From the IMG/VR virus record IMGVR_UViG_3300044815_000097, positions 1 through 44,428 of that record: 44,428 nt of DNA. One strand, 5' to 3'. Made by a program: the position numbers and the translations under genes. Below are positions 1,751-41,873 of this stretch, piece by piece. The stretch's first letter is position 1; every line of letters begins with the position of its first letter. Under the pieces are notes generated by a model. That model saw only the letters and a program-made list of their open reading frames with translations, did not search any database and was not told the DNA's origin. The DNA is from a virus.

Positions 1751-1944
1751 CCCGCCGGGAGACGTTCCTGCTGCTGGTCGTGGCCGTGGTGTTCATCGCC
1801 GGCGGTCTGGTGTGGCTGTTCGGCCCGTATGGGCTGGTCGGCTCCGGTGTCGCTCTGCTCGCCCTGGCCCTGTTCGGTGTTGACGTGAAGGAGCAGGGGC
1901 GACGTGGCGAAGCTGTGGCGACTGCTGACCGGTTCGGGGAATAA
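1747..1944 (+). CDS. small two-helix membrane protein between terminase and portal
   Basis: A 65-residue protein starting at GTG, overlapping the end of terL. Two hydrophobic segments (about residues 6-24 and 28-45) are followed by a charged tail. Its 3' end overlaps the portal start by 41 bases. Similar short membrane proteins are often found between terminase and portal in Streptomyces phages, with no established role. It could be translated mainly to couple portal expression. Confidence 0.7.
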   Translation: MTRRETFLLLVVAVVFIAGGLVWLFGPYGLVGSGVALLALALFGVDVKEQGRRGEAVATADRFGE

Positions 1945-3999: not shown

Positions 4000-5232
4000 G
4001 TGAATTTTCCCGCGCTCAAGGAGGCCGAGGGCCGCCTCGAGGCCAAGCAGAAGGAGTTGGCCGGCATCTTCGCCGAGGCCGGCCCCGAGATGGACATGGC
4101 GAAGGTCAAGTCCGTCGACGGCGACTCGAAGGCCAAGGTCGACCACATCCGCGGCCTGAACACCACCATGGACGAGCTGGGCATCGAGCTGGAGGGCCTG
4201 CGTGAGGTCGCGAAGGCGGCTGGCCGGGTCCAGGACAGTGACGAGCAGCGCGCGAAGGCATCCGAGCGTGGCGACGCCGCCGGGTCGGGCAAGCGCGAGA
4301 GCGGCGCGAAGTCGGTCGGCGAGATGTTCGTCGAGTCGAAGGCGTTTACCGGCCGGCAGGGCCACGCCGGTCCCGAGGTGCGCCTCGACATGGACCTGAA
4401 GGCCCTGTTCGACACCGCCGGCGGCTGGGTTCCGGAGACCACCCGCGGCCCGCGGATCGTCGACTACGTGACCCGGCCGATCCAGCTGATCGACCTGATC
4501 CCGAACACGACCACCGGGCAGACGGCCGTCACCTACATGGAGGAGACGACGTTCGTCAACAACACGGCGGAGATCCCCGAGGGCAGCCCGTACCCCGAGT
4601 CTGCGCTGGGCCTTGAGGAGAAGACCTCGCCGGTCCGGAAGATCGGCACGTACATCCCGGTGACGGACGAGACGCTCGAGGATGTGCCGCGCGCCCGGGG
4701 CTACATCAACAACCGGCTGCCGTTCATGGTGCGTCAGCGCCTGGACTCGCAGCTGCTCGTCGGGTCGGGTTCGGGCTCGAACCTGCGGGGCCTGCTGAAC
4801 ACCACGGGCATCCAGACCCAGGCCAAGGGCTCCGACCCGGTCCCGGACGCCGTCTACAAGGCCATGACCAAAATCAAGATCAACGGTCTGGCGATGCCGA
4901 ACGCCACGGTGTGGCACCCCAACGACTGGCAGGACGTTCGACTCCTGCGCACCACCGACGGGATCTACATCTGGGGCTCGCCGTCCGAGCCGGGCCCGGC
5001 CCGGATCTGGGGACTGCCCGTCATCGAGGCGTTCGGACTGACCGAGGGAACCGCCGTCGTCGGCGACTTCGCGAACTTCTCGGAGCTCGCCGTGCGCCGC
5101 GGCATAGACGTGCAGATCTCGAACAGCCACGCCGACTACTTCGTCAACGGCAAGCAGGCGATCCGCGCCGACATCCGGGTGGCCCTGGTCTTCTACCGGC
5201 CCGCCGCATTCGCCACCGTCACCGGCGTCTGA
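4000..5232 (+). CDS. major capsid protein (HK97 fold)
   Basis: A 410-residue capsid protein. Residues 1 to about 85 form a charged coiled-coil delta domain; a Gly/Ser/Lys linker follows (about 88-105), and the HK97-fold body starts near residue 125, with GGWVPETT near 141 and a typical end in RVALVFYRPAAFATVTGV. The delta domain would be removed by the upstream protease. GTG start with an AAGAGGAGA ribosome site 6 bases ahead. Confidence 0.95.
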   Translation: MNFPALKEAEGRLEAKQKELAGIFAEAGPEMDMAKVKSVDGDSKAKVDHIRGLNTTMDELGIELEGLREVAKAAGRVQDSDEQRAKASERGDAAGSGKRESGAKSVGEMFVESKAFTGRQGHAGPEVRLDMDLKALFDTAGGWVPETTRGPRIVDYVTRPIQLIDLIPNTTTGQTAVTYMEETTFVNNTAEIPEGSPYPESALGLEEKTSPVRKIGTYIPVTDETLEDVPRARGYINNRLPFMVRQRLDSQLLVGSGSGSNLRGLLNTTGIQTQAKGSDPVPDAVYKAMTKIKINGLAMPNATVWHPNDWQDVRLLRTTDGIYIWGSPSEPGPARIWGLPVIEAFGLTEGTAVVGDFANFSELAVRRGIDVQISNSHADYFVNGKQAIRADIRVALVFYRPAAFATVTGV

Positions 5233-12695: not shown

Positions 12696-15464
12696 GTGTC
12701 GGACACCTCTGTCGTCTTCAACGTGATCGGCAAGGAGCGGGTCGGTGGCGTCCTGGCCCGGGTACGGTCGCTGTTCCGATCGGCAGGCCAGGAAGCTCAG
12801 CGTGCTACCGGCGCCGCAGCGCAGTCGACGGAACGCCTCGATCATGAGATCCACCAGGTCGAGCGGTCGCTCGCCGAGCTGAACGCCGAGTTTGCGGCGA
12901 CCGGCAACAAAGAGCTGTTCGCGAAGATGAAACGCGACCGGTCCCTGCTTACCCAGCTCAAGACGGTGCGCAAGGAGCTGGGCGCGGTCAGCGGCGAAGC
13001 CGACCGGCTCGGCGGCGACGCAGACCGTACCGGGAACATGCTGTCGCGCCTCGGCGCGTCGGCAGGAAGCTCACTGTCGTCTGGCATGAACAACGCCGGT
13101 ACGGCGATGACCAACCTGTCGACCAACCTGTGGAACCTGATCCCGCTCCTGCTCGGCATGGCCGCCGCCGCGGCGGGCGCCGCCCCGGCCATGTACCTGC
13201 TCGGCGGGGCGATCGGGTCGCTGCCGGCCATCATCGCCGGCGCGGCGGCCGCCATGGCCGTGTTCCAGCTGGGCACGTCCGGGCTGTCCGAGGCGTGGAA
13301 GAAGGCCACCACCGCGACCAGCGGCGGAGCCAAGGCCGCCCGGGACATGACCTCAGCGCACCGTGCCGTCACCCAAGCGGCAAAGGAGGTCACCCGCTCC
13401 GAACGGGACGTCACCGACGCGTTGAAGCAGGTCCGGCAGGCTCACCTCGACGTCGCCGACGCTGTCCAGCAGGAACACCAGCGCCGCGGGCAGCTCAATC
13501 GGGATCTGGCCGGCGCGCGCCTCGACGAGCAGGACTCCGTCCAGGCGGTCACCGACGCCCAGACCGCTCTGAACGCGGCCCGGGCGAACGGTGCCCCACC
13601 GGACGAGGTCGAGGACCTGGAACGGGCCTACGAGCGGGCGGCGCTGCAACTGGACGACACCCGCGCCCGGCTGGGCGAGCTGACCCTGGAGCAGAAGAAG
13701 GCCGTCGCCACCGGGGTGCAAGGCTCGGCGCAGGTCGTCGCGGCGAAAGACCAAGAGGCCAAGGCGGTCCAGGGGGTCACTGACGCACAGGATCGCAACA
13801 AGGATGCGGTGCAGCGCCTCGCCGATGCCCAGAAGGCCCTCAACACCCCGGCTGGCGGCGGTGGCGGTGGCGGGCTCGCCTCGCCGAAGCTGGCCCCGGC
13901 TGCGCAGAAGTTCCTCAATGTGCTGCTGGGTTTGCGGCCGGCGTTCGAGAAGCTGCGCCTGGGCGTGCAGGAGAAGCTGTTCGCCGGGCTGGCCGACAAG
14001 TTCAAGACCATGGCCACGGCGTGGCTGCCTCAGCTGAACACCTCCCTGGGCCGGATGGCCACCACCTTCAACGGCATCGCGGGCAAGTTCATGGACACGG
14101 CGGCTAAGCCGGCGTTCATCACCAACATCGCCAAGGGCGTTGAGGGCGTCCGGTCGGCGTTCGACAAGGTCGGCCGGGTGGTGGCCGGGCCGCTGATGAC
14201 GGCGTTCGGGCAGCTGGCCGGCGTGTCGAAGCCATTCGTGGAGGCGCTCGGCGGCGAGGTCGCGAAGGTGCTCAGCGACTTCTCCGCGTGGATCGACAAG
14301 GTGTCGAAGAACGGCAGCCTGGACGTGTTCTTCACCCGGGCGACGGCCGTCATGAAGGACACGTTCGCCATGCTGAAGGACATCGGGTCGATCGCCGGAT
14401 CGGTCATGTCGATCCTGTTCGGCGCCGACCAGGACGTCACGATGTCGCCGTGGAACACCTTGAAGGTGTCCCTGGACAAGGTTGCGGCGTGGTTCAAGGA
14501 CCCGGAGAACCAGAAGAAGATCCAGGACTGGATCAACAAGATCAAAGAATTCGGCGTGTGGCTCGTGACCGACGCCATCCCGAAGATCGAACGCTTCGCC
14601 AAGAAGCTGGAGTCGTTTGCCAACAGGCTCAGCAATCCCAAGCAGCTGATCACCGACTTCTTCAACGCCATCAAGGACGCGGCGAAGCAGAGCCTCATCA
14701 GCATGGTGGTGGACCTCGCCACGCTGCCCGGCCGGGCGGCACGGGCGTTGGCCGGCCTCGGCCGTGCCATCGGGCCGGCAGTCACCCGAGGCATGGCGCG
14801 TCTGGGAGAGGTCATCGGCCGCGCCGCCGGTGCCGCAGTCCGGACGATGGTCCTGCTGCCCGGCCGGATAGCCGTCGCCCTGGCAACGCTCCCGGGCAGG
14901 GTTTGGAACGTCATCAAGGGCCTGCCCGATCTGGTCAGAAGAGGCGGCCCAGGGATGCACAACGCCGGCATGGACCTTGTGCGCGGCCTGTGGAACGGCA
15001 TCAAAGGCATGGGCGGATGGCTCATCAACAACGCTGTCGCATTCGGCAGCTCCATCGTCAAGGGGTTCAAAGAGGGCCTGGGCATCCACTCGCCATCCAA
15101 GGTGATGGCGACCCAGGTCGGCCATTGGATTCCGGCCGGCATCGCCGCCGGCATGGACTCCAACCGGCAGGCCGTCGTAGATGCCAGCAGCCGCATGTCC
15201 GGGCTGATCGGGATCGGAAAGCCCCGGCCGGTCGCAGGCTTCTCCAATGGCGCCCTTCGCCCAGCTGGCAGTCCGGCTGCGGCGTCCGGTGTCGCGACGG
15301 CTTCCCCGGCGGTCGGACCGACCGCCGGCGGTCGGACCGGCGGTGTGATCCGGTTCGAGGCCGGTGCGAATGGCGCGCTGGTCCAGGCGATCGTGAAGGC
15401 GCTGCGCTACGAGGTGCGCAGCGCCGGCGGCGGCAGCGCCCAGGCCCTGTTCGGTAAGGCCTGA
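12696..15464 (+). CDS. tape measure protein
   Basis: A 922-residue protein whose length would set tail length. It starts GTG. Residues about 48-110 and 210-370 are helical coiled coils, with a hydrophobic stretch at about 145-193, a run of Gly near 388, and helical repeats through the C-terminal half. Near the end it has GIHSPSKVM (796-804), followed by GHWIPAGIAAGMD, the hallmark end of tape measures of this type. No lytic transglycosylase or peptidase motif is visible. Confidence 0.95.
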   Translation: MSDTSVVFNVIGKERVGGVLARVRSLFRSAGQEAQRATGAAAQSTERLDHEIHQVERSLAELNAEFAATGNKELFAKMKRDRSLLTQLKTVRKELGAVSGEADRLGGDADRTGNMLSRLGASAGSSLSSGMNNAGTAMTNLSTNLWNLIPLLLGMAAAAAGAAPAMYLLGGAIGSLPAIIAGAAAAMAVFQLGTSGLSEAWKKATTATSGGAKAARDMTSAHRAVTQAAKEVTRSERDVTDALKQVRQAHLDVADAVQQEHQRRGQLNRDLAGARLDEQDSVQAVTDAQTALNAARANGAPPDEVEDLERAYERAALQLDDTRARLGELTLEQKKAVATGVQGSAQVVAAKDQEAKAVQGVTDAQDRNKDAVQRLADAQKALNTPAGGGGGGGLASPKLAPAAQKFLNVLLGLRPAFEKLRLGVQEKLFAGLADKFKTMATAWLPQLNTSLGRMATTFNGIAGKFMDTAAKPAFITNIAKGVEGVRSAFDKVGRVVAGPLMTAFGQLAGVSKPFVEALGGEVAKVLSDFSAWIDKVSKNGSLDVFFTRATAVMKDTFAMLKDIGSIAGSVMSILFGADQDVTMSPWNTLKVSLDKVAAWFKDPENQKKIQDWINKIKEFGVWLVTDAIPKIERFAKKLESFANRLSNPKQLITDFFNAIKDAAKQSLISMVVDLATLPGRAARALAGLGRAIGPAVTRGMARLGEVIGRAAGAAVRTMVLLPGRIAVALATLPGRVWNVIKGLPDLVRRGGPGMHNAGMDLVRGLWNGIKGMGGWLINNAVAFGSSIVKGFKEGLGIHSPSKVMATQVGHWIPAGIAAGMDSNRQAVVDASSRMSGLIGIGKPRPVAGFSNGALRPAGSPAAASGVATASPAVGPTAGGRTGGVIRFEAGANGALVQAIVKALRYEVRSAGGGSAQALFGKA

Positions 15465-22178: not shown

Positions 22179-22257
22179 GGAATCACCCCAGACCGGCCCG
22201 GATCATGGCTCACGTTTGAGCTGAGCGGCTTTGGCCCTCTGACCAGGCACAACGAAA

Positions 22258-22288
22258 GCGGCCCACCCTCATCGTGAGGGTGGGCCGC
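22258..22288. terminator. bidirectional terminator between convergent genes
   Basis: A 13-bp perfect stem, GCGGCCCACCCTC (22258-22270) with GAGGGTGGGCCGC (22276-22288), and a five-base loop. A CTTCTT stretch follows on the + side and TTTCGTT on the - side, so it can stop both the holin candidate and the leftward operon. Confidence 0.85.
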
Positions 22289-22301
22289 CTTCTTGCTGTG
22301 C

Positions 22302-22538
22302 TCAGGACGCGTCGCGCTGCACCGAGCGGATCTGGTTCCAGATCCGCCGGCCGATCCGCAGTCGCCGTCCGGTGCCTTTGCACCACCAGCAGTTGCGGAA
22401 CACCTTGCCGTCCTTGCGGGAGTGCCGGCCGCTGCCGTCACAGCACCAGCAGTTCGCGAACGGCCACCACGCGCAGCCGCCGACATAGAAGATGGTCACC
22501 GCGGCGAGGATGCCGAGGCCGATCAGCGTTGCCTTCAC
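22302..22538 (-). CDS. membrane-anchored zinc-finger (DnaJ-like CxxCxGxG) protein
   Basis: A 78-residue protein starting at GTG with GGAGG ahead. A hydrophobic N-terminal segment (about 3-24) is followed by two CxxC-GxG units, CWCCDGSG and CWWCKGTG, as in the DnaJ central zinc finger. Similar short proteins occur in actinobacterial integrative elements. It lies last in the leftward direction, separated from the TraB-like gene by a repeat-bearing gap. Confidence 0.72.
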   Translation of the reverse strand: MKATLIGLGILAAVTIFYVGGCAWWPFANCWCCDGSGRHSRKDGKVFRNCWWCKGTGRRLRIGRRIWNQIRSVQRDAS

Positions 22539-22562
22539 GGGGGATCCTCCGGGTGAATGTTG

Positions 22563-22727
22563 GTAGCACGACCCGTGCTACCGGTAGCACGGGTGAGAGA
22601 TCGCCGTGCTACCGGGCCGATGGCCTCTGAGCTGGGAAAACTCACGCAGGTAGCAAGTAGCGCGACTGCAGGCCCCCACCCTCGAAACGGCCCAGAGGGC
22701 GCTCCGGGGGGTGCGGGCCCGTGCTAC
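22563..22727. repeat. octamer cluster GTAGCACG / CGTGCTAC, candidate transfer locus (clt) or operator
   Basis: Five exact copies of one octamer lie in the 191-base gene-free gap: GTAGCACG at 22563-22570 and 22584-22591; its reverse complement CGTGCTAC at 22574-22581, 22605-22612 and 22720-22727. Related GTAGCAAGTAGCGCG is at 22650-22664. Copies alternate in direction. The cluster is directly downstream of the TraB-like gene and upstream of the last - strand gene. In Streptomyces plasmids TraB pumps bind 8-bp repeats (TRS) in clt sites near their gene, so clt is a good reading; an operator for the downstream gene is the alternative. Confidence 0.6.
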
Positions 22728-22729
22728 CG

Positions 22730-24850
22730 CTACTTGCTCTCGACCTGCCGGCGCTGCATCGCCGCCTCAAGAGCGGCCAGGTCGAAGCCTTGACCCTTGC
22801 CCTTCTCGAAGTGCTTCGGGTCATGCACTGACTTGCCGGCCACACCCAGGTCGCGCAGCTGCGCAGAGATCGCCGCAGGGGTCAGATCGGCGTAGTGCTC
22901 CGGCATCTCCTGCGACATCCGGGCGGCCAGCTCCGGCCACGAGATCCGGGCTTCGCCGGCGTAGAACACCGACCGGGCGTCCGCCATGACGTCGCGAGCC
23001 AACCGCGCGGCTTCCTCGCCGATGGCGGCACCGGACAGCGTGCCGAGGCGCTCCCGGTGACGGCGAGCCGCGATGAGGATCTTCTCCGCGTCCCCGTGGT
23101 CAGCGAGGAACGTCCGGACCGTCGGAGTCAGGTCAGACGCCCCGTAGAGGATGCCGACACCGCGATAGTCCTTCGTCCCGTTCGTCCCGTCACCGATCGG
23201 CAGCGCGGACGCGTCGTAGCCCTCTGAGTAGGCGTCGCCGCCCAGCACGGCCTCGCTGACCAGGCGGTTGCCGCACCGCAACGCGAAGCGGACCTGGTGG
23301 TTGTCGCGGAACCGGTTGAACAGCCGCCCCACGTCGCCGGAGCCGACCCCGGAGGGCTTCTGTGAGCTGTCCAGCAGGATCACGCCGGCGGACGGGCCCT
23401 GCGCCATGATGCGGCCCCACTTGCCGGCGATCCGCTTGTTGTAGTCCTGGTCCTCGGTTTCGAAGTAGACCTGGAACTCCTCACCAGCCACCACCCACAC
23501 CCGCAGGGCCGGGTACCGCGGGTCCCGGGCCAGCTCCTCGGTGAGCTTGCCTTCGGGGCACATCTCCACCGGCAGCGACGACAGGATGTCGTTGACCTCG
23601 GCGATGTGGGCGAGGACCTCGTCGAGCATTTCCTCCAGGTGGGTGAGCGGGTCGTTGTCGCGAGGGTTCGGGGCGTCCCCGACAACCCACCGGTGCGCGA
23701 CCAGGCGGAACTTGTCGTAGTCGGAGCTCTTCTTCCCGTCCGCGCCGAGGATCTTCACCCACGGGTCGAGCGCCGCGAACAGCAGGATCAGCCGCACGAA
23801 GAACGTCTTGCCCCGGCGCGGCATGGCGCCGATCAGGATCGAGTTCCACAGCAGCGTCAGGGTGACGAGCCGGTCCCGCTCGTCCTTGCCGAGCCGGATC
23901 GCCCGCCAGATGTTGCGCTGCTTCAGGTCGAGCATGTCCGTGCGCCCGACCGGGATGGCCAGGGGGTCCTGGTCGGCGACGAACAGCTGATGGCGCCGCT
24001 CCGACGTCTTGTCCTTGGTGAGGAACACCTGCTGGGCGGTCACGTCCAGCCCCGAGGCGATCTTCTCCTTGACCTTGACCGCGTCGGCGAAGCAGCCGCC
24101 GAACGGCAGGTGGACGACGACCTGCGACCCGCTGTCCCTTTCGTCGCGCGACATCTGCGACCCGAAGTCGATGACCTGGTCAGGCTTGTTCGGGTTGCCC
24201 AGGTTGGCGGCGTAGTAGGCGCGCAGCACCACGTCGGAGTTGATGCGGCGCTGCGCGTGGGCGACCACCGCGGTCCGGACGATCGGCTTGTTCGCCGGCC
24301 GGCCCAGGTGCGCCAGCCCAGGCAGGGCGGTGAGGATCGCGAGGACGGTCACCCAGGTGGGCTGGTTCATCAGGACCACCACCACGACCACCGCGGCGAC
24401 CAGCTCGGCGAGCAGGATCAGGCCGCGGAACAGGCGGATCGCCCGGGCCTTGTCGTGCAGCTTGTCCCACTCGGCGGCGTCGCCGTTGCTGGCGGCCTGC
24501 TGCCGCAGCTTCGACGACTCGTCCACCCACCACCAGCGGATCTGCCTGCCCAGCAGGGCAAACACGCCGACCAAGCCCCAGAACACGGCCAGGGGCAGGT
24601 ACTGGAACGGCAGCCGCACCGCGTGCACGGCGGTGCGGTGCGCGGCCAGGTGGGTGTTGCGCTTGACGGTCTTCTTGATCCCGGCGACGGTGCGCAGGTT
24701 CGCCGGGATGATCGGCACCAGCTCGTGGGTGCGGGCGATCACGTCGACGAAGACGGGCGCCCGGTCGGGGCGCGGCTCGTCGTCGTCGAGGGCCAGGTCG
24801 TAGTGCGAGTCGTACGTCTGCGACCCGTCGGCGGGGACCTGCTCTGCCAT
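22730..24850 (-). CDS. TraB-like DNA translocase (FtsK/SpoIIIE family)
   Basis: A 706-residue membrane pump of the kind that moves double-stranded DNA between Streptomyces mycelia. Order: an acidic N-terminus, hydrophobic segments near residues 84-101 and 141-182, then the ATPase domain with Walker A GAMPRRGKT (341-349), a Walker B-like VWVVAGEE (451-458) and a conserved DSSQKPS (494-500). The last 75 residues (ISWPELAARMSQ..., LTPAAISAQLRDLGV) look like the winged-helix DNA-recognition part. Walker B has Gly-Glu-Glu where Asp-Glu is usual. An AAGGAGG ribosome site precedes the ATG. Chromosomal FtsK is unlikely: too short, and in a transfer-type operon. Confidence 0.87.
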   Translation of the reverse strand: MAEQVPADGSQTYDSHYDLALDDDEPRPDRAPVFVDVIARTHELVPIIPANLRTVAGIKKTVKRNTHLAAHRTAVHAVRLPFQYLPLAVFWGLVGVFALLGRQIRWWWVDESSKLRQQAASNGDAAEWDKLHDKARAIRLFRGLILLAELVAAVVVVVVLMNQPTWVTVLAILTALPGLAHLGRPANKPIVRTAVVAHAQRRINSDVVLRAYYAANLGNPNKPDQVIDFGSQMSRDERDSGSQVVVHLPFGGCFADAVKVKEKIASGLDVTAQQVFLTKDKTSERRHQLFVADQDPLAIPVGRTDMLDLKQRNIWRAIRLGKDERDRLVTLTLLWNSILIGAMPRRGKTFFVRLILLFAALDPWVKILGADGKKSSDYDKFRLVAHRWVVGDAPNPRDNDPLTHLEEMLDEVLAHIAEVNDILSSLPVEMCPEGKLTEELARDPRYPALRVWVVAGEEFQVYFETEDQDYNKRIAGKWGRIMAQGPSAGVILLDSSQKPSGVGSGDVGRLFNRFRDNHQVRFALRCGNRLVSEAVLGGDAYSEGYDASALPIGDGTNGTKDYRGVGILYGASDLTPTVRTFLADHGDAEKILIAARRHRERLGTLSGAAIGEEAARLARDVMADARSVFYAGEARISWPELAARMSQEMPEHYADLTPAAISAQLRDLGVAGKSVHDPKHFEKGKGQGFDLAALEAAMQRRQVESK

Positions 24851-24851
24851 C

Positions 24852-25301
24852 TCAGCCCTCCTTCCGTTGCGCTAACCGGTACTGTCGCCTGCGCGCGCGG
24901 GCGCATTGGCGGCACTGACGCCCACCGTTCGTCATGATCTTTGTATTCCTATCGTCGAACTCGTGACCGCGAATGCAGTGCGTCTTGGCTGCGTTGATCG
25001 CGGCCGGCGCGGTTCCGCGCAGGATGTTGGTCCGCTGGGTCGCTGGCTCAAGATGGTCGGGAGCGACGCACCAGGTATTGCCACAGAGGTGGTCCAGCGT
25101 GAGTCCTTGAGGGATCTCGGAGATCCACACCTGATAGGCGAATCGGTGAGCCAGGATCTGCCGATACACGTAACAGAAGCGGCCATACCCACAGTTGTTG
25201 AAGTGGCTGGTCCACCGCATACATCCGTTCGCGTCAGGTAACCGTATGCTCTTATGGAACCGGATCTTGTCCGCATGGTTCAGCCATCGGAGTTCAATCA
25301 C
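24852..25301 (-). CDS. HNH endonuclease, probable homing insertion
   Basis: A 149-residue HNH nuclease. The core is AHRFAYQVWISEIPQGLTLDHLCGN and CVAPDHLEPATQRTN, with H and N residues in the usual places; the C-terminus has HCIRGHEF and CRQCARARRR. It starts GTG with GAGGAG ahead. It lies between small operon genes and the TraB-like gene, and its DNA is clearly poorer in GC and less biased at third positions than the neighbours, which suggests recent arrival as a free-standing homing nuclease. Confidence 0.88.
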   Translation of the reverse strand: MIELRWLNHADKIRFHKSIRLPDANGCMRWTSHFNNCGYGRFCYVYRQILAHRFAYQVWISEIPQGLTLDHLCGNTWCVAPDHLEPATQRTNILRGTAPAAINAAKTHCIRGHEFDDRNTKIMTNGGRQCRQCARARRRQYRLAQRKEG

Positions 25302-25337
25302 GACTGGTGTGCTCCTCTGCAGTATCGGGAGGGTGGG

Positions 25338-25380
25338 GCGGGGCGCGACCGGCTGCCAGGCCGTGAGGGTCGCGCCCCGC
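25338..25380 (-). terminator. hairpin between small transfer genes and HNH/TraB
   Basis: Perfect 13-bp arms GCGGGGCGCGACC (25338-25350) and GGTCGCGCCCCGC (25368-25380), with a 17-base loop, directly after the last tiny gene. It could reduce readthrough into the HNH and TraB-like genes, so that the pump is made at a lower level. No T tract seen. Confidence 0.6.
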
Positions 25381-25386
25381 GCGGAG

Positions 25387-25521
25387 CTACTTGCCGTCCC
25401 GCTCGCGCTTACCGTCGGGGCGGATCTTGTTGTGCTCGTAGACGGCGCCGCTCTTCTTCTCGATGCGGATATCGCCGTTCGGGTACTTCGTCTTCTTCAC
25501 GGTCTTGTCGAAAATCGTCAT
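25387..25521 (-). CDS. tiny basic protein, transfer operon
   Basis: A 44-residue basic protein (MTIFDKTVKKTKYPNGDIRI) with GC-rich third positions. Its ATG overlaps the stop of the next upstream gene (TGATG). It is the last of a run of coupled tiny genes. Function unknown; tiny spread (Spd) genes are typical in such operons. Confidence 0.65.
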   Translation of the reverse strand: MTIFDKTVKKTKYPNGDIRIEKKSGAVYEHNKIRPDGKRERDGK

Positions 25522-25682
25522 CACTTGCCGCCCTTCTTGGCCTGCGCGGCCTCGCGCACCTCACGGGCGTAGCGGTCGGCCTTAGCCGCAGAGTCACCCA
25601 TGGCCAGCGAGGCCCGGCGCTTCTCCTCAGCTACCTGATCGATGATTTTCTTCGTCATCACTTGCCGCCCTTCTTGGCCTGC
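25515..25682. repeat. 31-bp direct repeat in two tiny genes
   Basis: The same 31 bases occur at 25515-25545 and 25652-25682. Each copy covers the end of one tiny gene (coding AKKGGK) and the start region of the next. It marks a tandem duplication of a gene end within the operon and could be a site for deletion by recombination. Confidence 0.85.
25521..25658 (-). CDS. tiny helical protein, transfer operon
   Basis: A 45-residue protein (MTKKIIDQVAEEKRRASLAM) ending QAKKGGK, one helix, strongly charged. The end is nearly identical to the upstream neighbour, consistent with the duplication. Start and stop overlap those of its neighbours by one base each. Confidence 0.65.
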   Translation of the reverse strand: MTKKIIDQVAEEKRRASLAMGDSAAKADRYAREVREAAQAKKGGK

Positions 25683-25783
25683 TGCTTCGCGGCCTTAGCC
25701 CGTTCGGCGTCCCGCTTGTCCCAGTAGTCCTTCAGCGACATCGAGCCGCCTTTGTACTGGTCCCACGCGTCCTTCTTCGCCAT
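25658..25783 (-). CDS. tiny basic protein, transfer operon
   Basis: A 41-residue Lys-rich protein (MAKKDAWDQYKGGSMSLKDY) ending QAKKGGK as in the next gene. Coupled to both neighbours by one-base overlaps. No known family. Confidence 0.65.
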   Translation of the reverse strand: MAKKDAWDQYKGGSMSLKDYWDKRDAERAKAAKQQAKKGGK

Positions 25784-25941
25784 CAGCGCTTCTTCCTTCC
25801 CAGCAGGCGGGCCAACGGGCCCTCGGTGAACGTGTGGATGGAGTACTCGTCGTAGCCGCGCAAATGCTTCGGCAGGGTCGTCTCGACCCGCTCCACCCGG
25901 CCGTTCTTCCCGACCCGGTGCCCGAACTCCCTCTTCGCCAT
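25783..25941 (-). CDS. tiny basic protein, transfer operon
   Basis: A 52-residue basic protein (MAKREFGHRVGKNGRVERVE) with a C-terminal GRKKR. The reading frame uses GC-rich third positions. It begins directly after the preceding stop. Function unknown. Confidence 0.65.
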   Translation of the reverse strand: MAKREFGHRVGKNGRVERVETTLPKHLRGYDEYSIHTFTEGPLARLLGRKKR

Positions 25942-26088
25942 CTACTTGCTCCCCTTCCTGCTGTCACGGCGCATCTCCACGACGGCCTTGACTGTCGCCG
26001 CAGGAACGCTTTTGCCCTGGTCTCGGTACTTGCCGACCCGCCGGTCGAGCTCCTGCAGCTTCCGGACCGCGTCGTCTCTACTCACCAT
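25942..26088 (-). CDS. tiny helical protein, transfer operon
   Basis: A 48-residue basic protein (MVSRDDAVRKLQELDRRVGK), likely two helices. Its start overlaps the stop of the SpdB-like gene (TGATG). A longer in-frame reading upstream lies wholly in that gene and was not used. Confidence 0.65.
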   Translation of the reverse strand: MVSRDDAVRKLQELDRRVGKYRDQGKSVPAATVKAVVEMRRDSRKGSK

Positions 26089-27005
26089 CAGTTGCTCTCC
26101 TTGCTCTCGGAACGGGACAGGTGGCGCAGGGCGCAGCCCATGCCGAACACGGCCACCGGGATGCACGCCACCACCGTGGTGATCTCCCACGGGGCGTGCT
26201 CGATCCCCGCCGCGACCATCAGGTGGTAGGCGACCTGGCCGCCGGCGCCCAACACCAGGGATCCGATCGCGGACCACTTCGCGAACGTGCGGGCGACAGC
26301 CGGGACGGCCCCCGACAGCCAGATGTAGGTCGCGTACGCCGCGTACGTCTCGAGGCCGATCGGGAGGGTGATCGCGGTGTTCAGGGCGACGTCGTCGAGG
26401 ATCCCCGGCAACGGGTGGACAACACCGAAACCGGTGAGCCTGCCCAGGTCCACCCACCCGGACCAGATCGCTACGAACGCGGGCAGGGCGAGGAGGAACA
26501 CCGGCCACGTCCGCGGTGGGCTGGCCGGCTTCGGAAGCGGCCGGTCAACGGCGACGGCGGGTGTTTCCAGGACCGCGACCGGCGGGGCGGCGAAAGCCGG
26601 GACCGCCACCGGCCTGACCGGGCCCAGCGGGCGGTCCGAGATCGGGTCGGCGGGCCACTCGGACGGTGTTTCCACAACCCTGCTGAGGTGCGCAAAGTCC
26701 GGCCCGTGGTCGTAGAAGACCGGCGACGGCATGGGGCTGACCGGGTTGCCCCAGGAACGGGGCGGCAGCGGCCGGGCGGGGCGTTTCTGCGTCGCTGCGG
26801 CCGCGAGGCGGCGCATGTTCGTCCGGGCCTGCTGGCGGCGCCGCTGGCGGTCCTCGGTGAGGGCGTCGAGAACGGCCGCCGCCTTCGGCAGACCCACCCG
26901 CAGCTCCTTCATCAGGGTGCGCTTCGACAGCGGACCCGGGACCCGCCGGGCGACGTCCTTAGCCGCCGGCAGCAGCTCTTCAACCTCGGTGCTAAAAACG
27001 GTCAT
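26088..27005 (-). CDS. SpdB-like membrane protein, DUF2637 type
   Basis: A 305-residue protein. Residues 1-70 are a basic helical part with a winged-helix look (GPLSKRTLMKELRVGLPKAA); 75-165 is a Pro-rich linker; 168-300 holds four hydrophobic segments in the order of DUF2637 proteins (VFLLALPAFVAIWSGWVDLG, then ALNTAITLPIGLETYAAY). DUF2637/SpdB proteins in Streptomyces plasmids and AICEs help spread transferred DNA along the recipient mycelium. The N-terminal part may contact DNA. Overlaps both neighbours by one base. Confidence 0.8.
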   Translation of the reverse strand: MTVFSTEVEELLPAAKDVARRVPGPLSKRTLMKELRVGLPKAAAVLDALTEDRQRRRQQARTNMRRLAAAATQKRPARPLPPRSWGNPVSPMPSPVFYDHGPDFAHLSRVVETPSEWPADPISDRPLGPVRPVAVPAFAAPPVAVLETPAVAVDRPLPKPASPPRTWPVFLLALPAFVAIWSGWVDLGRLTGFGVVHPLPGILDDVALNTAITLPIGLETYAAYATYIWLSGAVPAVARTFAKWSAIGSLVLGAGGQVAYHLMVAAGIEHAPWEITTVVACIPVAVFGMGCALRHLSRSESKESN

Positions 27006-27172
27006 CAGTTCGCACTCCCTTGACGCAGGCGGCGGGTGTTGGCGGCGTGCTGCACAGCGAGGGCGTCCCTGGTGGTCTGGCGCTGCTTGGCAAGCTGGGC
27101 TTCGAGCTGCTTCTCATGCTTGATCTCCGCGTTGCGTGCCGCGAACATCTCGGCGCCACCACGGCGGCTCAC
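27005..27172 (-). CDS. tiny helical protein, transfer operon
   Basis: A 55-residue protein starting GTG (VSRRGGAEMFAARNAEIKHE) with AAGGAG ahead, mostly one long charged helix. Start overlaps the previous stop (GTGA). It could be a coiled-coil partner of the SpdB-like protein encoded next. Function unknown. Confidence 0.7.
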   Translation of the reverse strand: MSRRGGAEMFAARNAEIKHEKQLEAQLAKQRQTTRDALAVQHAANTRRLRQGSAN

Positions 27173-27414
27173 GATGCGATCTCCTTGCGGCCTTGGGCGG
27201 CCTCGATGGCTTTGGCGGTCTGGCGGGAGTGGCGGACCACCGCGGAGCCCTGCGCCCACATCACGAACAGCACGGCGATGGACAGGCCGATCGCGGCCAG
27301 GGCGAGCAGCAGCATCACCGCGCCGGACGTCTGCCACCACGCGTTGGCGAACAGGCCGGCCATAACAGCGGTGATGGCCAGGGCGCCGGCGTTGCGGCGC
27401 AGGAAGGCGGTCAT
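27169..27414 (-). CDS. two-helix membrane protein, transfer operon
   Basis: An 81-residue protein (MTAFLRRNAGALAITAVMAG) with two hydrophobic segments (about 9-26 and 31-54) and a basic C-terminal helix. It looks like the small Spd membrane proteins of actinobacterial plasmids. Both ends overlap the neighbours by four bases (ATGA/GTGA). Confidence 0.75.
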   Translation of the reverse strand: MTAFLRRNAGALAITAVMAGLFANAWWQTSGAVMLLLALAAIGLSIAVLFVMWAQGSAVVRHSRQTAKAIEAAQGRKEIAS

Positions 27415-27827
27415 CGGTCGGCCGCCAGCGCCTCGGCGTGAGCCGCTTCGATCAGGGCCGCCTCGCCGTGGCCCATGTGCGGCGCCGCCGCGTTGATCTG
27501 CACGGCCTTGCGGTACATGGCGTCGCGCCAGTCCGCCCACTGCGCGCGCCCGGCCACCACGTCGCGGCCCGGCAGGATGATGTAGCCCAGCTCGGACGGC
27601 GACGGCGCGTCGTCCGGCCAGCTGTTGATGCAGGACCAGCAGTAGCCCTCCCCACGGCCACGCTCGTCCGGGTCGACGATGACGTCGCACTCGTCGGCGC
27701 CGCAGCCGCAGCACCCGTCAGCGGGGGATGGGACGTGCCGGCGGTCCTGCAGGACTCGGCCGACGATCGTGCCGGCGGTGAGCACCAGCAGGCTGGCCAG
27801 GATGACGAGGGGCAGGTAGGTGGTCAT
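27411..27827 (-). CDS. membrane-anchored Cys-rich protein, transfer operon
   Basis: A 138-residue protein. A hydrophobic segment (about 5-24) is followed by two Cys pairs, CCGCGADEC (about 38-46) and CWSC (about 62-65), which may bind zinc, and a helical acidic C-terminus. Start MTTYLPLVILASLLV was chosen over an upstream extension because it overlaps the upstream stop (ATGA). Confidence 0.72.
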   Translation of the reverse strand: MTTYLPLVILASLLVLTAGTIVGRVLQDRRHVPSPADGCCGCGADECDVIVDPDERGRGEGYCWSCINSWPDDAPSPSELGYIILPGRDVVAGRAQWADWRDAMYRKAVQINAAAPHMGHGEAALIEAAHAEALAADR

Positions 27828-27970
27828 CGGGTGCCCCGATCGGCTGCCCTGCGGGCGTCCGCGGCCGCGTCGAGCAGGCGCTGCCGGCATCCGGCGTCGC
27901 TGCTGAGCTTGGCCTGGGCCTCGGCGTCATCGGCGGCGCGGCGGAGACGGTCGATCTGGTCCTGGTTCAT
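27824..27970 (-). CDS. tiny helical protein, transfer operon
   Basis: A 48-residue Ala/Arg/Asp-rich protein (MNQDQIDRLRRAADDAEAQA), one or two helices. Overlaps both neighbours by four bases. Function unknown. Confidence 0.68.
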   Translation of the reverse strand: MNQDQIDRLRRAADDAEAQAKLSSDAGCRQRLLDAAADARRAADRGTR

Positions 27971-28077
27971 GCGAGGACACCTCCGAGGATTCCGTGGGGG
28001 CTCACCGCGGCGCACCACGCCAACACGGTCACGACGGCGGTGAGGCGATACACGAAGCGATTGATTGCAGCGGCCAC
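27967..28077 (-). CDS. tiny membrane protein, first gene of the leftward operon
   Basis: A 36-residue protein starting GTG with AAGGAGG ahead (VAAAINRFVYRLTAVVTVLA), one membrane helix. It is the first gene after the candidate promoter at 28125-28154, and overlaps the next gene by four bases. It may be a leader peptide as much as a functional protein. Confidence 0.6.
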   Translation of the reverse strand: MAAAINRFVYRLTAVVTVLAWCAAVSPHGILGGVLA

Positions 28078-28124
28078 TGCGGGCCTCCTTGGGTGGGGCT
28101 TGTTTTTGTCTTGCGTGAGACGTT

Positions 28125-28154
28125 AACGTAGGCCGAGACAGCAACGTGTGTCAA
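28125..28154 (-). promoter_or_regulatory. leftward promoter of the transfer operon with GAGAC repeats
   Basis: On the - strand a consensus -35 box TTGACA (28149-28154) and a -10 TACGTT (28125-28130) lie 18 bases apart, pointing at the tiny gene at 28077. Three GAGAC repeats overlap or flank the boxes (in GTGAGACGTTAACG, GCCGAGACAGCAACG and AAGTGAGACAGG), good operator candidates for the HTH protein encoded on the other side. Confidence 0.7.
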
Positions 28155-28173
28155 GTGAGACAGGGGTGATAAC

Positions 28174-28428
28174 GTGACCGCCGTGCCAAGGCCGGTAACG
28201 AAGCTGACCGACGACCAGCGGAAACTCCTCGCGGAAGCGATCAAGGCCGCAGCGGAATCCGACCGGGCTGAGCGGGAAGCCGAGCAGATCAAGGACGCGG
28301 CCTGGCAAGCGATCCTCGCGGCGCGCAACGCCGGCGTCCCCGACGACCTGCTCTGCAAGCAGACAGGGTTCAGCCGGGCAACGCTCAACCGGAAGTTCGG
28401 CACCCGCCCAGACGGCGCGGACGAATAG
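28174..28428 (+). CDS. small HTH protein, candidate transfer-operon repressor
   Basis: An 84-residue protein starting GTG, diverging from the transfer operon. The first 45 residues are a charged helix; the C-terminal part has a resolvase-type helix-turn-helix, GVPDDLLCKQTGFSRATLNR (about 54-73). In Streptomyces plasmids a KorA-type repressor sits at such a place and limits the lethal tra gene. No sequence match to KorA itself is claimed. Confidence 0.75.
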   Translation: MTAVPRPVTKLTDDQRKLLAEAIKAAAESDRAEREAEQIKDAAWQAILAARNAGVPDDLLCKQTGFSRATLNRKFGTRPDGADE

Positions 28429-29530: not shown

Positions 29531-29553
29531 GGTTCGAGTCCTCAGCAGGGGCC
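29531..29553 (+). other. candidate attP core, tRNA T-arm-like
   Basis: GGTTCGAGTCCTCAGCAGGGG contains GGTTCGAGTCC, the T-loop and inner stem of a tRNA, and overlaps the 3' end of the integrase gene (stop at 29542-29544). Integrases of this kind often use a tRNA 3' end as attB with the attP core beside int. The 3' part does not fit an acceptor stem I can name, so the tRNA identity is open. Confidence 0.45.
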
Positions 29554-30411
29554 AGGGCTGAATGTGGGGAGCGTCTGGATAGCAGCCAGACGCTCCTCGT
29601 TCGTCACCAGGGTGTAGATCGCGGTCGTCGTCGGCGACGAATGCCGCATCAGCTCCTGAGTACGGCGGATGTCCTTCGTCGTGCGGTACAGATTCGTGCC
29701 GTACCAGTGCCGCAGTCGGTGCAACCCCACCCCCGGCATGCCGAGGTGACGCCGGAAGTAGACCGCCGTGCGGATGCTGACCCACTTCGCGTTGGCCGGC
29801 TCCCCCACGTCATTCCATGCCACCGGCCCCCTGGGCAGGTCTTTCACGGCGTCCCAGATCGCCGGATGAGTGGGCAGCACCCCCGGTCGCCCACCCTTCC
29901 CGGCCAGAACGAGCAGGTTGTCCTCGGTGATGTCCTGCCTACTCAGACCGGCGATCTCGATGGACCTCAGGCCGGCATAGGCGCCGAAGAGCGCCCAGGT
30001 CCGATAGGGCTCGGCAGACTCGGTAAGAATGCGACGCAGCTGGGCGTCAGAAACAGGCCTGGGTAGGCCCCGAGGGCTCTTTGGGCGGGGCAGCAGCGCG
30101 GACGGGTCGAAGTCGAGCTTCGGGTCGTACGGGTTACATGCCCACACGAAGAACGCGCGAACGGTGCCGTAGTACGCCTCGCGCGTGGCTGGCCCGAAGC
30201 GGTCTTGGTAGACCCAGGCGGACAGCTCGACGGAGGTAGCAGCTTCGATGCCGTAGGGCATCGCCGCGTTAATCCGCCCGAGGATTCCTTCACGGTGGGT
30301 GATGGTGCGCGGTGAGCTGTTGCGCTTCCGCAGCCACTCCAGATATTGGTCGATCAGTGGACTCATGCTGGTCATGCTGCGTTTACGGGGACGCAACAGG
30401 GAAGAGGTCAC
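29542..30411 (-). CDS. int: tyrosine site-specific integrase
   Basis: A 289-residue recombinase that would integrate and excise the element. N-terminal SAM-like core-binding domain (about 16-100). Catalytic residues: Arg149 in AGLRSIEI, Lys172 in GKGGRPG, His231-x-x-Arg234 in HRLRHW, His257 in RHSS, Tyr266 in AIYT. All are present. The GTG start overlaps the repressor stop (GTGA), so the two are co-translated; an ATG 36 bases inside (30375) is an alternative start. A terminator and the candidate attP sit at its 3' end. Confidence 0.93.
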   Translation of the reverse strand: MTSSLLRPRKRSMTSMSPLIDQYLEWLRKRNSSPRTITHREGILGRINAAMPYGIEAATSVELSAWVYQDRFGPATREAYYGTVRAFFVWACNPYDPKLDFDPSALLPRPKSPRGLPRPVSDAQLRRILTESAEPYRTWALFGAYAGLRSIEIAGLSRQDITEDNLLVLAGKGGRPGVLPTHPAIWDAVKDLPRGPVAWNDVGEPANAKWVSIRTAVYFRRHLGMPGVGLHRLRHWYGTNLYRTTKDIRRTQELMRHSSPTTTAIYTLVTNEERLAAIQTLPTFSPGPC

Positions 30412-30827
30412 GAGACCCGCTCAAAAGCGCCGAACGGTTGCGAGGGGGACGACTCGATACGAGCCGGGCGGCGCATGGTGGGGATCATGCGTGAGGCCGC
30501 GGCCAGGACCTTCGAGGGGTTGACGCTCGGATGATCGGCGATCGGCGCTTCTCGATCGGACAATGCAAGGTTCGCCACCGTATCTTTCACGCCTGTCCCT
30601 AACAACTCCGCCACGGTGACGTTCAGCTCACGGGCAATGATTTCGAGATCGTCGAGGTCAAGGGGCACCTCGCCGGTCATGCGCCGCGACAGATAGGTCT
30701 GCCCGACCCCCATGCGGGTGGCGAGCTTTGCTGCGCTCATCTTGCGGCGCGCCAGGAGCGCCCGGATCTCCTCGGCGGCCTGCTCGCGCAGGCGGCCCGT
30801 CTGCTCAGCAGGACGTTGTGTGGTCAT
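30408..30827 (-). CDS. XRE-family immunity repressor
   Basis: A 139-residue protein. Residues about 15-75 hold an HTH_3 domain (KMSAAKLATRMGVGQTYLSR as the helix-turn-helix). The C-terminal part is flexible, with no peptidase motif, so it is not an autocleaved CI type. It would keep the lytic genes off. It faces the Cro-like gene across a region with CCCGCTGAGCGG repeats. Start MTTQRPAEQ was chosen over an upstream in-frame start. Confidence 0.88.
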   Translation of the reverse strand: MTTQRPAEQTGRLREQAAEEIRALLARRKMSAAKLATRMGVGQTYLSRRMTGEVPLDLDDLEIIARELNVTVAELLGTGVKDTVANLALSDREAPIADHPSVNPSKVLAAASRMIPTMRRPARIESSPSQPFGAFERVS

Positions 30828-30840
30828 GCCGACAGTGTCG

Positions 30841-30944
30841 CCCGCTGACCGGCACAAATCAATGATCGGCGGGCCACCGGATCATCACATCGGGTGACCA
30901 TCCCGCTGAGCGGCTAGACAAACCTCCCGCTGAGCGGGTAGACA
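30841..30944. promoter_or_regulatory. divergent lysogeny control region with repressor operators
   Basis: Two near-identical 19-base copies start CCCGCTGAGCGG and end TAGACA (30902-30920 and 30926-30944), 24 bases apart. Each has an inverted CCGCTGAGCGG core. A third relative, CCCGCTGACCGG, is at 30841-30852 near the repressor start. Copies with their TAGACA also look like -35 (30915-30920) and -10 (30939-30944) boxes for the rightward gene. These are the likely binding sites of the repressor and Cro-like protein. Confidence 0.72.
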
Positions 30945-39144: not shown

Positions 39145-41676
39145 ATGAACGAGGTCTTGACCGCAGCGCTCACCTGGCACGACCAGGGGTACTGCGTCTT
39201 GCCGACCCGCACCGACGGGTCCAAGGCGCCCGACGTCACGACCTGGAAGGCATACCAGAACGAAGCACCCAACCGGCAACGCGTCGAAGCATGGTTCGCC
39301 GACGACCACCCCGGCGTCGGCGTGCTCTGCGGCGCCATCAGCGGCAACCTCGAAATGCTCGAGCTCGAAGGCCGCGCCGTCACCGAAGGGGCCCTCGCCG
39401 ACCTGCAACACCTCATCGAGCAGTCCGGCCTCGCCGACCTGTGGCTGCGCATCACCCGAGACGGATACACCGAACGCACCCCATCCGGCGGCCTGCACTT
39501 CCTCTACCGAGTCGACGGCACGCCGGTTCCCGGCAACACCAAGCTCGCCAACCGGCCGGCCACCGACGCCGAGCTGGAGGCCAAGCCGAAGGAGACGGTC
39601 AAAGGCCTCGCCGAGACGCGCGGTGAAGGCGGATACGTCGTCGTCGCCCCGTCCCACGGCCCCACCCACCCCAGCGGCAAACCGTGGGAGCTGGTGCACG
39701 GCGGACCCGGGCAGGTCGCCACCATCACCGCCGACGAACGCGAGCAACTACACCGCCTGTTCCGCTGCCTCGACAAAATCCCCGTCGTCGAGCCTGCGCC
39801 GGCCCGGCCCCTGCAGGTCGTCCGCGGCACCACCGACGGCGCCACACCCGGCGACGACTTCGAAGCCAAGGTGCCCTGGGACGACCCGATGCTGCTCGGC
39901 GGCGCCGGGTGGCGGCCAACATTCAGCCAAGGCCACGTCACGTTCTGGCGCCGACCCGGCAAGGACACACCAGGCGTGTCAGCCACCACCGGCAAGGACC
40001 CGGCACGCGACCGGCTCTACGTGTTCAGCTCCGCCACCGAGTTCCCCACCGAAACACCCATCACCAAGTTCGGCGCGTACGCCCTGCTCCACCACGCCAA
40101 CGACTTCAAGGCCGCCGCCCGGGAACTCCGCCGGCTCGGCTACGGCGCGCCCCTGCCCAGCCCGTCCGAGCAGCAACGCGCCGCGATCGCCGACCTGGTC
40201 CCCGACGTCGCCGAACGCACCATGAGCTCTGTCGACGGCAACACCGTGCGGGTCCTCGCCGAACCCAAGGCCAAGCCCCAGTTCTTCGGCGCCACCCAGG
40301 ACGGCATGGCCCGCGCCCTCGTCGAACACCACGGGCACGAATTGCGCTACGTGCCCCAGCGCGGCAAATGGCTGGCCTGGGACGGGCACCGCTGGCAGTG
40401 GGACGACAACGAACGCCACCGCGAGCTCACCCTCGGCCTGGCCCGCCACCTGCCCGAAGACGACAAGGACTGGAAACTGTTCCGGCGCAGCATGCTGTCG
40501 TCGGCCGGCGTCACCGGCGCTACCCGCCTCGCCCAGTCCAACGCGAAAATCGTCGTCGGCTTCGACAAGCTCGACGCAGACCCGTGGGTGCTCAACACCC
40601 CCGGCGGCATCATCGACCTGCGCACCGGCGAGCTCAGCCCGCCCGACCCGGCCGCCCTGTGCACCAGGTCGACCAGCTGCGCCCCCGACACCGACGCCGA
40701 CCCGCGCCGGTGGCAGGAGTTCCTCGCCGACACGTTCGGCGCGGACCAGGCGCTCGTCGGCTACCTGCAACGCCTGCTCGGATACTCGGCTGTCGGCGTC
40801 GTCGGCGCCCACGTCCTCCCGTTCGCCCACGGCTCCGGCGGCAACGGCAAAGGCGTCTTCCTCGAGGCGCTCGCCGGGGTGCTCGGCGAGTACGCCACCA
40901 GCGCCCCGAACGGCTTCCTCATGCAGCAGCCGTTCCCCGGCCACGACACCGAGATCGCCCGTCTCGCCGGGGCCCGGATGGTGATCTGCTCCGAGGTCAA
41001 CGAGGACGACCGGTTCGACGAAGCCAAGGTCAAGATGCTGACCGGTGGCGACACCCTCACCGCCCGGTTCATGCGGCAGGACTACTTCACCTTCCAGCCC
41101 ACCCACCAGCTCTGGCTGATGGGCAACCACCAGCCCGCTGTCCGATCCGGCGGCCGATCGTTCTGGCGCCGGCTACGCCTCATCCCGTTCGACCACGAAG
41201 TACCCGAGGACAAGATCGAGGACGACCTGCAGGGCAAGCTCATCCGCGACCACGGCCCCGCCCTGCTCGCCTGGATCGCCGCCGGCGCGGCCGCCTACCA
41301 CCGCGGCGGCCTGGGCGAGCCCGACAGCGTCAAGGCCGCCACCGCTGAGTACGCCCACGACCAGGACTCCGTCGCCCGGTTCGTTGAGGAGTGCTGCCGG
41401 GTCGGCGGCGGTGCCCATGTCACCACCAAGGTCGCCAAGGTCCGCGAGGCGTACGAAGCGTGGTGCCAGACCGAGGGGGCGAAGCCCGTCACAGCGAAGC
41501 GGCTGACGATGGACCTGGACCGCAAATTCGGGGTCACCGGCCACCGCACCAAGGCGGCCCGGATGTACTCCAACATCACCGTTCTGGCCGACGGAAACCT
41601 GTCACCCGATTCTTCGAACCTGTCACCCGATTCTTCGAACCTGTCACCCGGGCGCGAAGAACAAGGCGGGTGGTGA
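39145..41676 (+). CDS. prim-pol / P4-type primase-helicase
   Basis: An 843-residue replication protein. Residues 1-200: bifunctional prim-pol domain (GYCVLPTRTDGSKAPDVTTW; GVGVLCGAISGNLEMLELEG; SGGLHFLYR). The acidic pair after the strand reads E-x-E (LELE) where D-x-D is usual. Middle: a linker. Residues 530-760: D5/P4-type SF3 helicase with Walker A GSGGNGKG (563-570), Walker B VICSEVNEDD and LMGNHQPAVR. The C-terminus carries 7-residue NLSPDSS repeats coded by the iteron cluster. RBS GGAG at 9 bases. Confidence 0.93.
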   Translation: MNEVLTAALTWHDQGYCVLPTRTDGSKAPDVTTWKAYQNEAPNRQRVEAWFADDHPGVGVLCGAISGNLEMLELEGRAVTEGALADLQHLIEQSGLADLWLRITRDGYTERTPSGGLHFLYRVDGTPVPGNTKLANRPATDAELEAKPKETVKGLAETRGEGGYVVVAPSHGPTHPSGKPWELVHGGPGQVATITADEREQLHRLFRCLDKIPVVEPAPARPLQVVRGTTDGATPGDDFEAKVPWDDPMLLGGAGWRPTFSQGHVTFWRRPGKDTPGVSATTGKDPARDRLYVFSSATEFPTETPITKFGAYALLHHANDFKAAARELRRLGYGAPLPSPSEQQRAAIADLVPDVAERTMSSVDGNTVRVLAEPKAKPQFFGATQDGMARALVEHHGHELRYVPQRGKWLAWDGHRWQWDDNERHRELTLGLARHLPEDDKDWKLFRRSMLSSAGVTGATRLAQSNAKIVVGFDKLDADPWVLNTPGGIIDLRTGELSPPDPAALCTRSTSCAPDTDADPRRWQEFLADTFGADQALVGYLQRLLGYSAVGVVGAHVLPFAHGSGGNGKGVFLEALAGVLGEYATSAPNGFLMQQPFPGHDTEIARLAGARMVICSEVNEDDRFDEAKVKMLTGGDTLTARFMRQDYFTFQPTHQLWLMGNHQPAVRSGGRSFWRRLRLIPFDHEVPEDKIEDDLQGKLIRDHGPALLAWIAAGAAAYHRGGLGEPDSVKAATAEYAHDQDSVARFVEECCRVGGGAHVTTKVAKVREAYEAWCQTEGAKPVTAKRLTMDLDRKFGVTGHRTKAARMYSNITVLADGNLSPDSSNLSPDSSNLSPGREEQGGW

Positions 41677-41873
41677 CGTCCATGGCCTCCACAAACCTGT
41701 CACCCCTGACCACCCCCCACAAACCTGTCACCTGCCACCTGAGCTGCGCAAACGCCTCAGCGATCCAGGTGACAGGTGACAGGTGTGACAGGTTTCTGAA
41801 CTTATCGAAAGAACGTGCGCACACACATGCATGCACATGTCCGGCGAACCTAGAAAACCTGTCACCTGTCACC
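41596..41873. repeat. iteron-like cluster CCTGTCACC, candidate replication origin
   Basis: Seven exact forward copies of CCTGTCACC: 41598, 41619, 41640, 41696, 41724, 41858 and 41865 (start positions), plus two exact reverse copies GGTGACAGG at 41768 and 41775, with near copies at 41784 and 41731. The first three are 21 bases apart and lie inside the primase gene; the rest are in the gap before the next gene. A less GC-rich stretch (41790-41860) sits among them. Repeat array, AT-richer DNA and a primase-helicase alongside make an origin the best reading; an operator is possible. Confidence 0.72.

Follow-up and report, generated by a model that had tools for sequence, protein, structure and literature searches.

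A temperate actinobacterial siphophage genome with a probable TraB-type transfer module shared with integrative and conjugative elements

Introduction

Can a prophage act as an actinomycete integrative and conjugative element (AICE)? The question is made testable by a locus in the IMG/VR virus record IMGVR_UViG_3300044815_000097, a sequence of 44,428 bp without terminal repeats that was analysed over its whole length and is called the window below. Between the late phage genes and the integrase/repressor side of this record lies a tight minus-strand operon, running from about 28.0 to 22.3 kb (22302-28090), whose largest product is a DNA pump of the FtsK/SpoIIIE type. A first-pass annotation, made from the sequence alone, had likened the operon to the transfer regions of Streptomyces conjugative plasmids and AICEs and had proposed that the element spreads both in virions and from cell to cell. 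Pumps of TraB systems recognise a cis-acting locus of transfer (clt) by its short repeats, and this locus often adjoins the pump gene (PMC3583192, PMC4170104, PMC3218068). Our analysis suggests, with a probability of about 0.72, that the window represents all or nearly all of the genome of a temperate actinobacterial siphophage equipped with a TraB-type transfer module that is shared with AICEs.

Results

The pump (706 aa; 22730..24850, minus strand) carries the Walker A motif LIGAMPRRGKTF and the Walker B motif VVAGEEFQ, and the patterns GAxPRxGKT and hhhhEEF are kept across 21 aligned pump rows. Hydrophobic segments at 82, 143 and 165 mark its N-terminal membrane helices, and its last 70 residues are modelled as a winged helix (secondary structure 635-705). 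The AlphaFold model (pLDDT 76) matches the FtsK motor (6t8o/6t8b, E 1e-11; Foldseek) and also the conjugation protein TcpA (E 7e-11). No Pfam family matched the pump, a single-sequence PDB search was without match, and a tblastn search of 50,697 phage records gave no match; the only clear library match was PHROG 1358, an FtsK-like moron. The pump does match 33 actinomycete plasmids, among them pSVH1, the source of TraB, which of all such conjugative pumps has been studied best. Motifs, motor fold, membrane helices, winged helix and the match to pSVH1 TraB together bear out the TraB-like pump of the first-pass annotation. Relatives at 45-74% identity were found in 14 viral contigs and at 17 chromosomal loci, mostly AICEs. 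In the AICE relatives that were scanned, the pump is surrounded by a GntR regulator, PrimPol, a DUF3631 Rep, an HTH_17 Xis-like gene and an integrase (Int).

In an IQ-TREE phylogeny of 41 pumps, a sample in which chromosomal FtsK was not included, the window pump pairs with that of the viral contig L004 (support 100/100); both belong to a clade (98/96) made up of four pumps from phages and nine from AICEs. Excluded from the pump clade (100/100) are the FtsKs of phages Hiyaa and P1312 and of pZL12, so that the grouping with phage FtsKs that could have overturned the transfer reading was not observed. Monophyly of all viral pumps of the family was rejected (approximately unbiased test, p 0.003). 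Since the viral pumps do not form one clade, the pump appears to have been exchanged between phages and AICEs more than once. Among closer pump pairs, the ratio of nonsynonymous to synonymous substitution rates (dN/dS) is 0.08-0.37, and the pump is under purifying selection between these close pairs.

The 191 bp after the pump gene (22539..22729) contain five copies of GGTAGCACG in both orientations. This region was identified as a candidate clt by its repeats, and we also performed a blind scan for the most-repeated 8-mer just 3' of each pump gene, with no motif named beforehand. In the window, the scan returned GGTAGCAC, with five copies in 191 bp, a count reached in 0 of 2000 shuffles; the rest of the 44-kb window holds just one more GTAGCACG. 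The core GGTAGC occurs six times in the array against 0.12 expected (p 3e-9), and at the same position it is present 7-9 times in the phage relatives L005-L007 and 7-10 times in most AICE relatives. Other lineages have other cores in this place, namely GTGCCGCG in L009, L010 and L071-L073, GTAGCGGC in L074 and L075, and GGTCGCGG in L015. Applied to pSVH1 as a positive control, the scan recovered CCGGGTCG/GACCCGGA in five copies at the transfer locus, in agreement with GACCCGGA being what we take to be the recognition sequence of pSVH1 TraB. The repeat unit tends to track the residues of the pump recognition helix, a tendency for which relatedness alone could account. The only comparably strong 8-mer arrays elsewhere in the window are a 12-bp tandem near 33.2 kb and an iteron-like array after the PrimPol gene. 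By its place and its repeats, the array 3' of the pump resembles a clt, to which TraB pumps dock.

Within this candidate clt, an element CTGAGCTGGGAAAAC lies at 22627. The sequence CTGASCTGSGNAAAC occurs exactly twice in the window, at 22627-22641 in the pump-side array and at 41739-41753 in the PrimPol-side array, and it is also present 3' of pSVH1 traB and in several relatives. The element CTGACCTGCGNAAACG was considered as a signature of the transfer locus and rejected: at least 120 viral contigs carry it, which is by estimate near chance and leaves it without use as a marker, and among the matches listed it lies directly 3' of a pump in only two contigs.

Nine viral contigs besides the window combine phage head or packaging genes with the pump and, together with one cultured Phytohabitans prophage, make up ten close relatives of phage type, whose phage backbones differ. 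Contig G001, with a pump 74% identical, has the gene order of the window: integrase, the divergent 84-aa helix-turn-helix (HTH) gene described below, operon, zinc-ribbon-like gene, holin-like gene, portal and large terminase (TerL). G005 (71 kb) and G006 (53 kb) begin and end with direct repeats (127 and 99 bp, respectively), a trait of assembled complete genomes, and both carry TerL, portal, tail genes and the pump. In one contig of Phytohabitans maris, chromosomal-looking genes are followed by integrase, repressor, TerL, protease, major capsid protein (MCP), tape measure and tail genes and by the operon, which continues to the contig end; a second contig holds MCP and the pump. This cultured genome (L059/L060 and L212) has two different phage-type regions, each with a pump of this family. 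Pump identity among the relatives is 45-74%, while their terminases are 25-34% identical or undetected by tblastn, which points to a moving module. The pump, the zinc-ribbon-like gene and the repeat array recur together in independent contigs, so that the arrangement is more than chance.

The rest of the window is that of a temperate siphophage. The left part (0-22.2 kb, plus strand) encodes TerL (272..1750; PHROG 9, 9e-66), portal (1904..3268; PHROG 12, 2e-38), protease, MCP (4000..5232; PHROG 10, 8e-53), head-tail adaptor, tape measure protein (12696..15464; PHROG 4197, 2e-55) and tail proteins, all on the plus strand. On the minus strand of the right part are a tyrosine integrase (29542..30411; PF00589 4e-10, PHROG 1 1e-32) and a cI/Cro-type repressor (30408..30857; HTH_3 6e-10, PHROG 4583), and on its plus strand Ant, an exonuclease, a PrimPol/D5 helicase-primase (39145..41676) and a RuvC-like resolvase. 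With TerL, portal, capsid, tape measure, integrase and repressor, the window has what defines a temperate siphophage, and these matches around 22302-28090 confirm that the pump operon sits within a siphophage gene set with an integrase. It falls outside the definition of an AICE (Int, Rep and Tra without virion genes): Int, PrimPol and Tra are present, plus head and tail genes. Around the end of the PrimPol/D5 gene, AACCTGTCA occurs seven times against 0.17 expected, three of the copies in a perfect 21-bp period, and this iteron-like array (41596..41864) is a candidate replication origin. As to the plasmid replication and partition genes that mark a phage-plasmid of the pZL12 kind, PrimPol and the iteron-like array are present, and ParAB was not recognised among the window proteins scanned, a set that covers the small open reading frames (ORFs) only partly. 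The 12-bp tandem repeat, GGCCGCCGCTCG, runs for 22.6 copies (33190-33460) within an ORF at 32762-33538.

From the promoter side, the operon begins with four small ORFs. The gene of a 305-aa membrane protein follows, then five ORFs of 41-52 aa and the genes of an HNH endonuclease, the pump and a 78-aa protein. The 305-aa protein (26088..27005, minus strand) had been described as a DUF2637/SpdB-like membrane protein, and only part of this description holds. Its structure model shows an N-terminal HTH (pLDDT near 95), a disordered linker and four transmembrane helices, an anatomy that is SpdB-like; membership of DUF2637 was rejected, as there is no match to PF10935 at E<=1 and profile comparison with DUF2637 proteins aligns the HTH part alone. 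The protein is 43-63% identical to AICE proteins in the same slot; L004, the closest relative among phages, and the AICE L012 have true DUF2637 proteins in this position (1e-11 and 1e-23, respectively). In pSVH1, the membrane protein SpdB2 binds to DNA and has TraB as an interaction partner (PMC4170104), and the likeness to SpdB is on this ground a functional one. In the Kineosporia locus L019 (8736-9686), the HTH and four-helix parts have changed places, which gives the arrangement of DUF2637-HTH proteins. Nocardia and Cellulosimicrobium plasmids have the closest SpdB-like membrane domain; that these are phage-plasmids with such a pump was not borne out in the stretches examined of the two, and one of them carries a MobF relaxase.

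All other genes of the operon are also on the minus strand. The four small ORFs encode 48 aa (27824..27970, the first of the operon), 138 aa with an N-terminal membrane anchor and a Cys-rich segment (27411..27827; sequence and codon-position GC), 81 aa with a membrane segment (27169..27414) and 55 aa (27005..27172). After the SpdB-like gene come tiny ORFs of 48 aa (25942..26088), 52 aa (25783..25941), 41 aa (25658..25783), 46 aa (25521..25661, overlapping its neighbours) and 45 aa (25387..25524); the last four were called by codon-position GC, and those of 48 (both), 55 and 81 aa by sequence reading. These ORFs upstream of the pump (41-138 aa), with many overlaps of 1-4 bp, are the coupled tiny genes that the first-pass annotation had noticed. 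The HNH endonuclease (24852..25301; PHROG 826 E 1e-42, Pfam HNH_3), directly upstream of the pump, is of the homing type and has a 76% identical counterpart in the corresponding slot of L004. Downstream of the pump, the 78-aa small membrane/CxxC zinc-ribbon-like protein (22302..22538) shares 32-53% identity with the ORF after the pump in most relatives, both phages and AICEs. A stem-loop with 18-nt arms (22254..22292; inverted-repeat and terminator scan), located between the converging late genes and the operon, is a candidate 3' terminator of the operon. At the other end, an intergenic region (27971..28173) with the imperfect palindrome TGTCAAGTGAGACA at 28149 would control the operon and the divergent gene. 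The latter encodes an 84-aa HTH-like protein (28174..28428, plus strand), a candidate regulator of the operon; its HTH matches are weak, and it is kept at the same position in L004, L005 and L006 (39-49%), in line with the divergent small HTH protein first proposed.

Discussion

The operon resembles the transfer regions of AICEs as had been suggested, sharing with them a homologous pump, the slot protein, the zinc-ribbon-like gene and the repeat array. Among the closest known systems are AICEs of the PrimPol/RepAM type from Kribbella, Actinophytocola and Kibdelosporangium (L011-L024), which have a pump 54-58% identical, an SpdB-like slot protein 43-63% identical, the zinc-ribbon-like gene, a clt-like GGTAGC array in the same place and a tyrosine integrase. 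They differ in having GntR, RepAM/PrimPol and an Xis-like gene, and in lacking virion genes. With its TraB-type pump, repeats directly 3' of the gene and spd genes in the operon, pSVH1 is laid out similarly, but its pump is only 29% identical over 366 aa, its repeat unit is GACCCGGA and it has no phage genes.

Several observations weigh against a transfer module in a phage. The candidate clt is proposed from position and repeats alone, and in L003, L004, L005, L008, L012, L017 and L069 the arrays are weak by a single exact 8-mer. The SpdB-like protein is not a Pfam DUF2637, and a GntR/KorSA-type regulator, as in AICEs, was not found, the divergent 84-aa protein having no GntR match; in our view, the transfer mechanism is not defined by such a regulator. 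Proteins of the FtsK type are found, too, in phages for which no role in transfer is known. On a rival view, the pump would be a phage FtsK that serves the lytic cycle or the takeover of the host, a moron with no part in transfer. PHROG 1358 as the sole library match and the presence of FtsK genes in Streptomyces phages would fit it. However, the pump stands apart from phage FtsKs in the tree and is encoded on the strand opposite to the late genes, its winged helix is accompanied by a clt-like array, and its neighbours are common to AICEs; we thus consider a moron quite improbable. Finally, the window is a single metagenome-type record and, taken alone, may contain an assembly fault. An AICE inserted beside a prophage, or decaying within it, would likewise explain why the pump and its neighbours are AICE-like within one record. 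Such a composite is at odds with several findings: a single integrase and a single PrimPol were recognised and no AICE Rep or GntR, the pump motifs are intact, the pump is under purifying selection, G001 has the same arrangement and the pump is also present in records with terminal repeats. The order of G001, the terminal-repeat contigs and the Phytohabitans maris contigs make a chimera or a neighbouring AICE unlikely, and we give the composite very little credence.

What the module does is a separate matter. The main rival to conjugation is spread within one mycelium, in which the pump and the Spd-like proteins would, once the phage has infected or been induced, move its DNA across cross-walls from one compartment to the next without any true transfer from donor to recipient. 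The relatives come almost only from genera known to form hyphae. Moreover, the Spd functions of Streptomyces plasmids are those of intramycelial spread (PMC4170104). Nevertheless, TraB of Streptomyces plasmids also performs intermycelial transfer, and the AICE relatives are presumed to conjugate with a pump of this kind. We find this explanation unlikely; the two processes are compatible, and one machinery may serve intramycelial spread as a further function. It could also be imagined that the pump-side array is a second replication or partition site and that the pump segregates extrachromosomal phage DNA, for instance into spores, as CTGASCTGSGNAAAC is common to this array and to the iteron array beside PrimPol. 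The repeat units of the two arrays differ, though, the pSVH1 array with CTGASCTGSGNAAAC adjoins its traB, and the units vary with the pump lineage, which leaves a role in segregation hardly credible.

The first-pass annotation had seen here a new class of mobile element, or at least a rarely described one; the claim to a new class could not be upheld. Conjugal transfer has been reported for the Streptomyces plasmid-phage pZL12 (PMC3583192, citing Zhong 2010), and pPaSha2, a plasmid of Pseudonocardia alni, combines phage head genes with DUF2637 and FtsK; the hybrid kind is therefore already known. Like the window, pZL12 has phage genes and an FtsK-type tra locus; it differs by an FtsK outside the window pump clade, by plasmid replication and by the lack of a detectable repeat array on the 3' side of the FtsK gene. 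Both pPaSha2 and the P. broussonetiae plasmid unnamed3 are circular plasmids that join phage-type genes to a DUF2637 and FtsK cassette; their pumps are only 26-28% identical to that of the window, and they are extrachromosomal circles with no GGTAGC array. The P. broussonetiae plasmid (L063), a 27-kb circle that has terminase, PrimPol and integrase as well as DUF2637 and FtsK, resembles another phage-plasmid that carries a cassette for transfer. Thermobifida phage P1312 (L002) is an isolated phage with FtsK and a downstream ORF domain 47% identical to the membrane part of the SpdB-like protein, but its FtsK lies outside the window pump clade. In the open-licence literature, which leaves most subscription papers outside, we met with no description of integrative phages that carry the transfer module of an AICE together with its clt, and with none of a transfer module being exchanged repeatedly between AICEs and phages. 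The integrative form, a prophage with an AICE-type pump, is real and new within this known hybrid kind.

The transfer module probably works as follows. A temperate siphophage would have acquired the TraB-type module shared with AICEs and retained it under selection. The operon runs leftward from about 28.0 kb and shares its strand with integrase and repressor; for this reason it is probably expressed during lysogeny, under the small divergent HTH-like regulator. Held in the membrane by its N-terminal helices, the pump would use its C-terminal winged helix to bind the GGTAGCACG repeats that follow closely 3' of the pump gene, and the ring motor could then drive unprocessed double-stranded phage DNA, or the prophage with flanking chromosome, into a neighbouring hypha. 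The HTH and four-helix protein and the tiny genes may act as Spd-type factors for passage through septa.

More broadly, and only tentatively, at a little short of even odds, integrative temperate phages of hypha-forming actinobacteria could be widespread dual-mode elements, spreading in virions and by TraB/clt transfer of double-stranded DNA from the lysogen, which may mobilise prophage-adjacent chromosome and whose module has been repeatedly exchanged with AICEs. If so, a single genome could spread by two routes independent of each other, the first dependent on lysis and the second on contact only, and host chromosomal DNA could be moved as it is by conjugative elements. The shared module and the matching putative docking sites indicate, at the level of sequence, that transfer genes have moved between phages and conjugative elements, and the boundary between the two would blur for a whole group of soil viruses.

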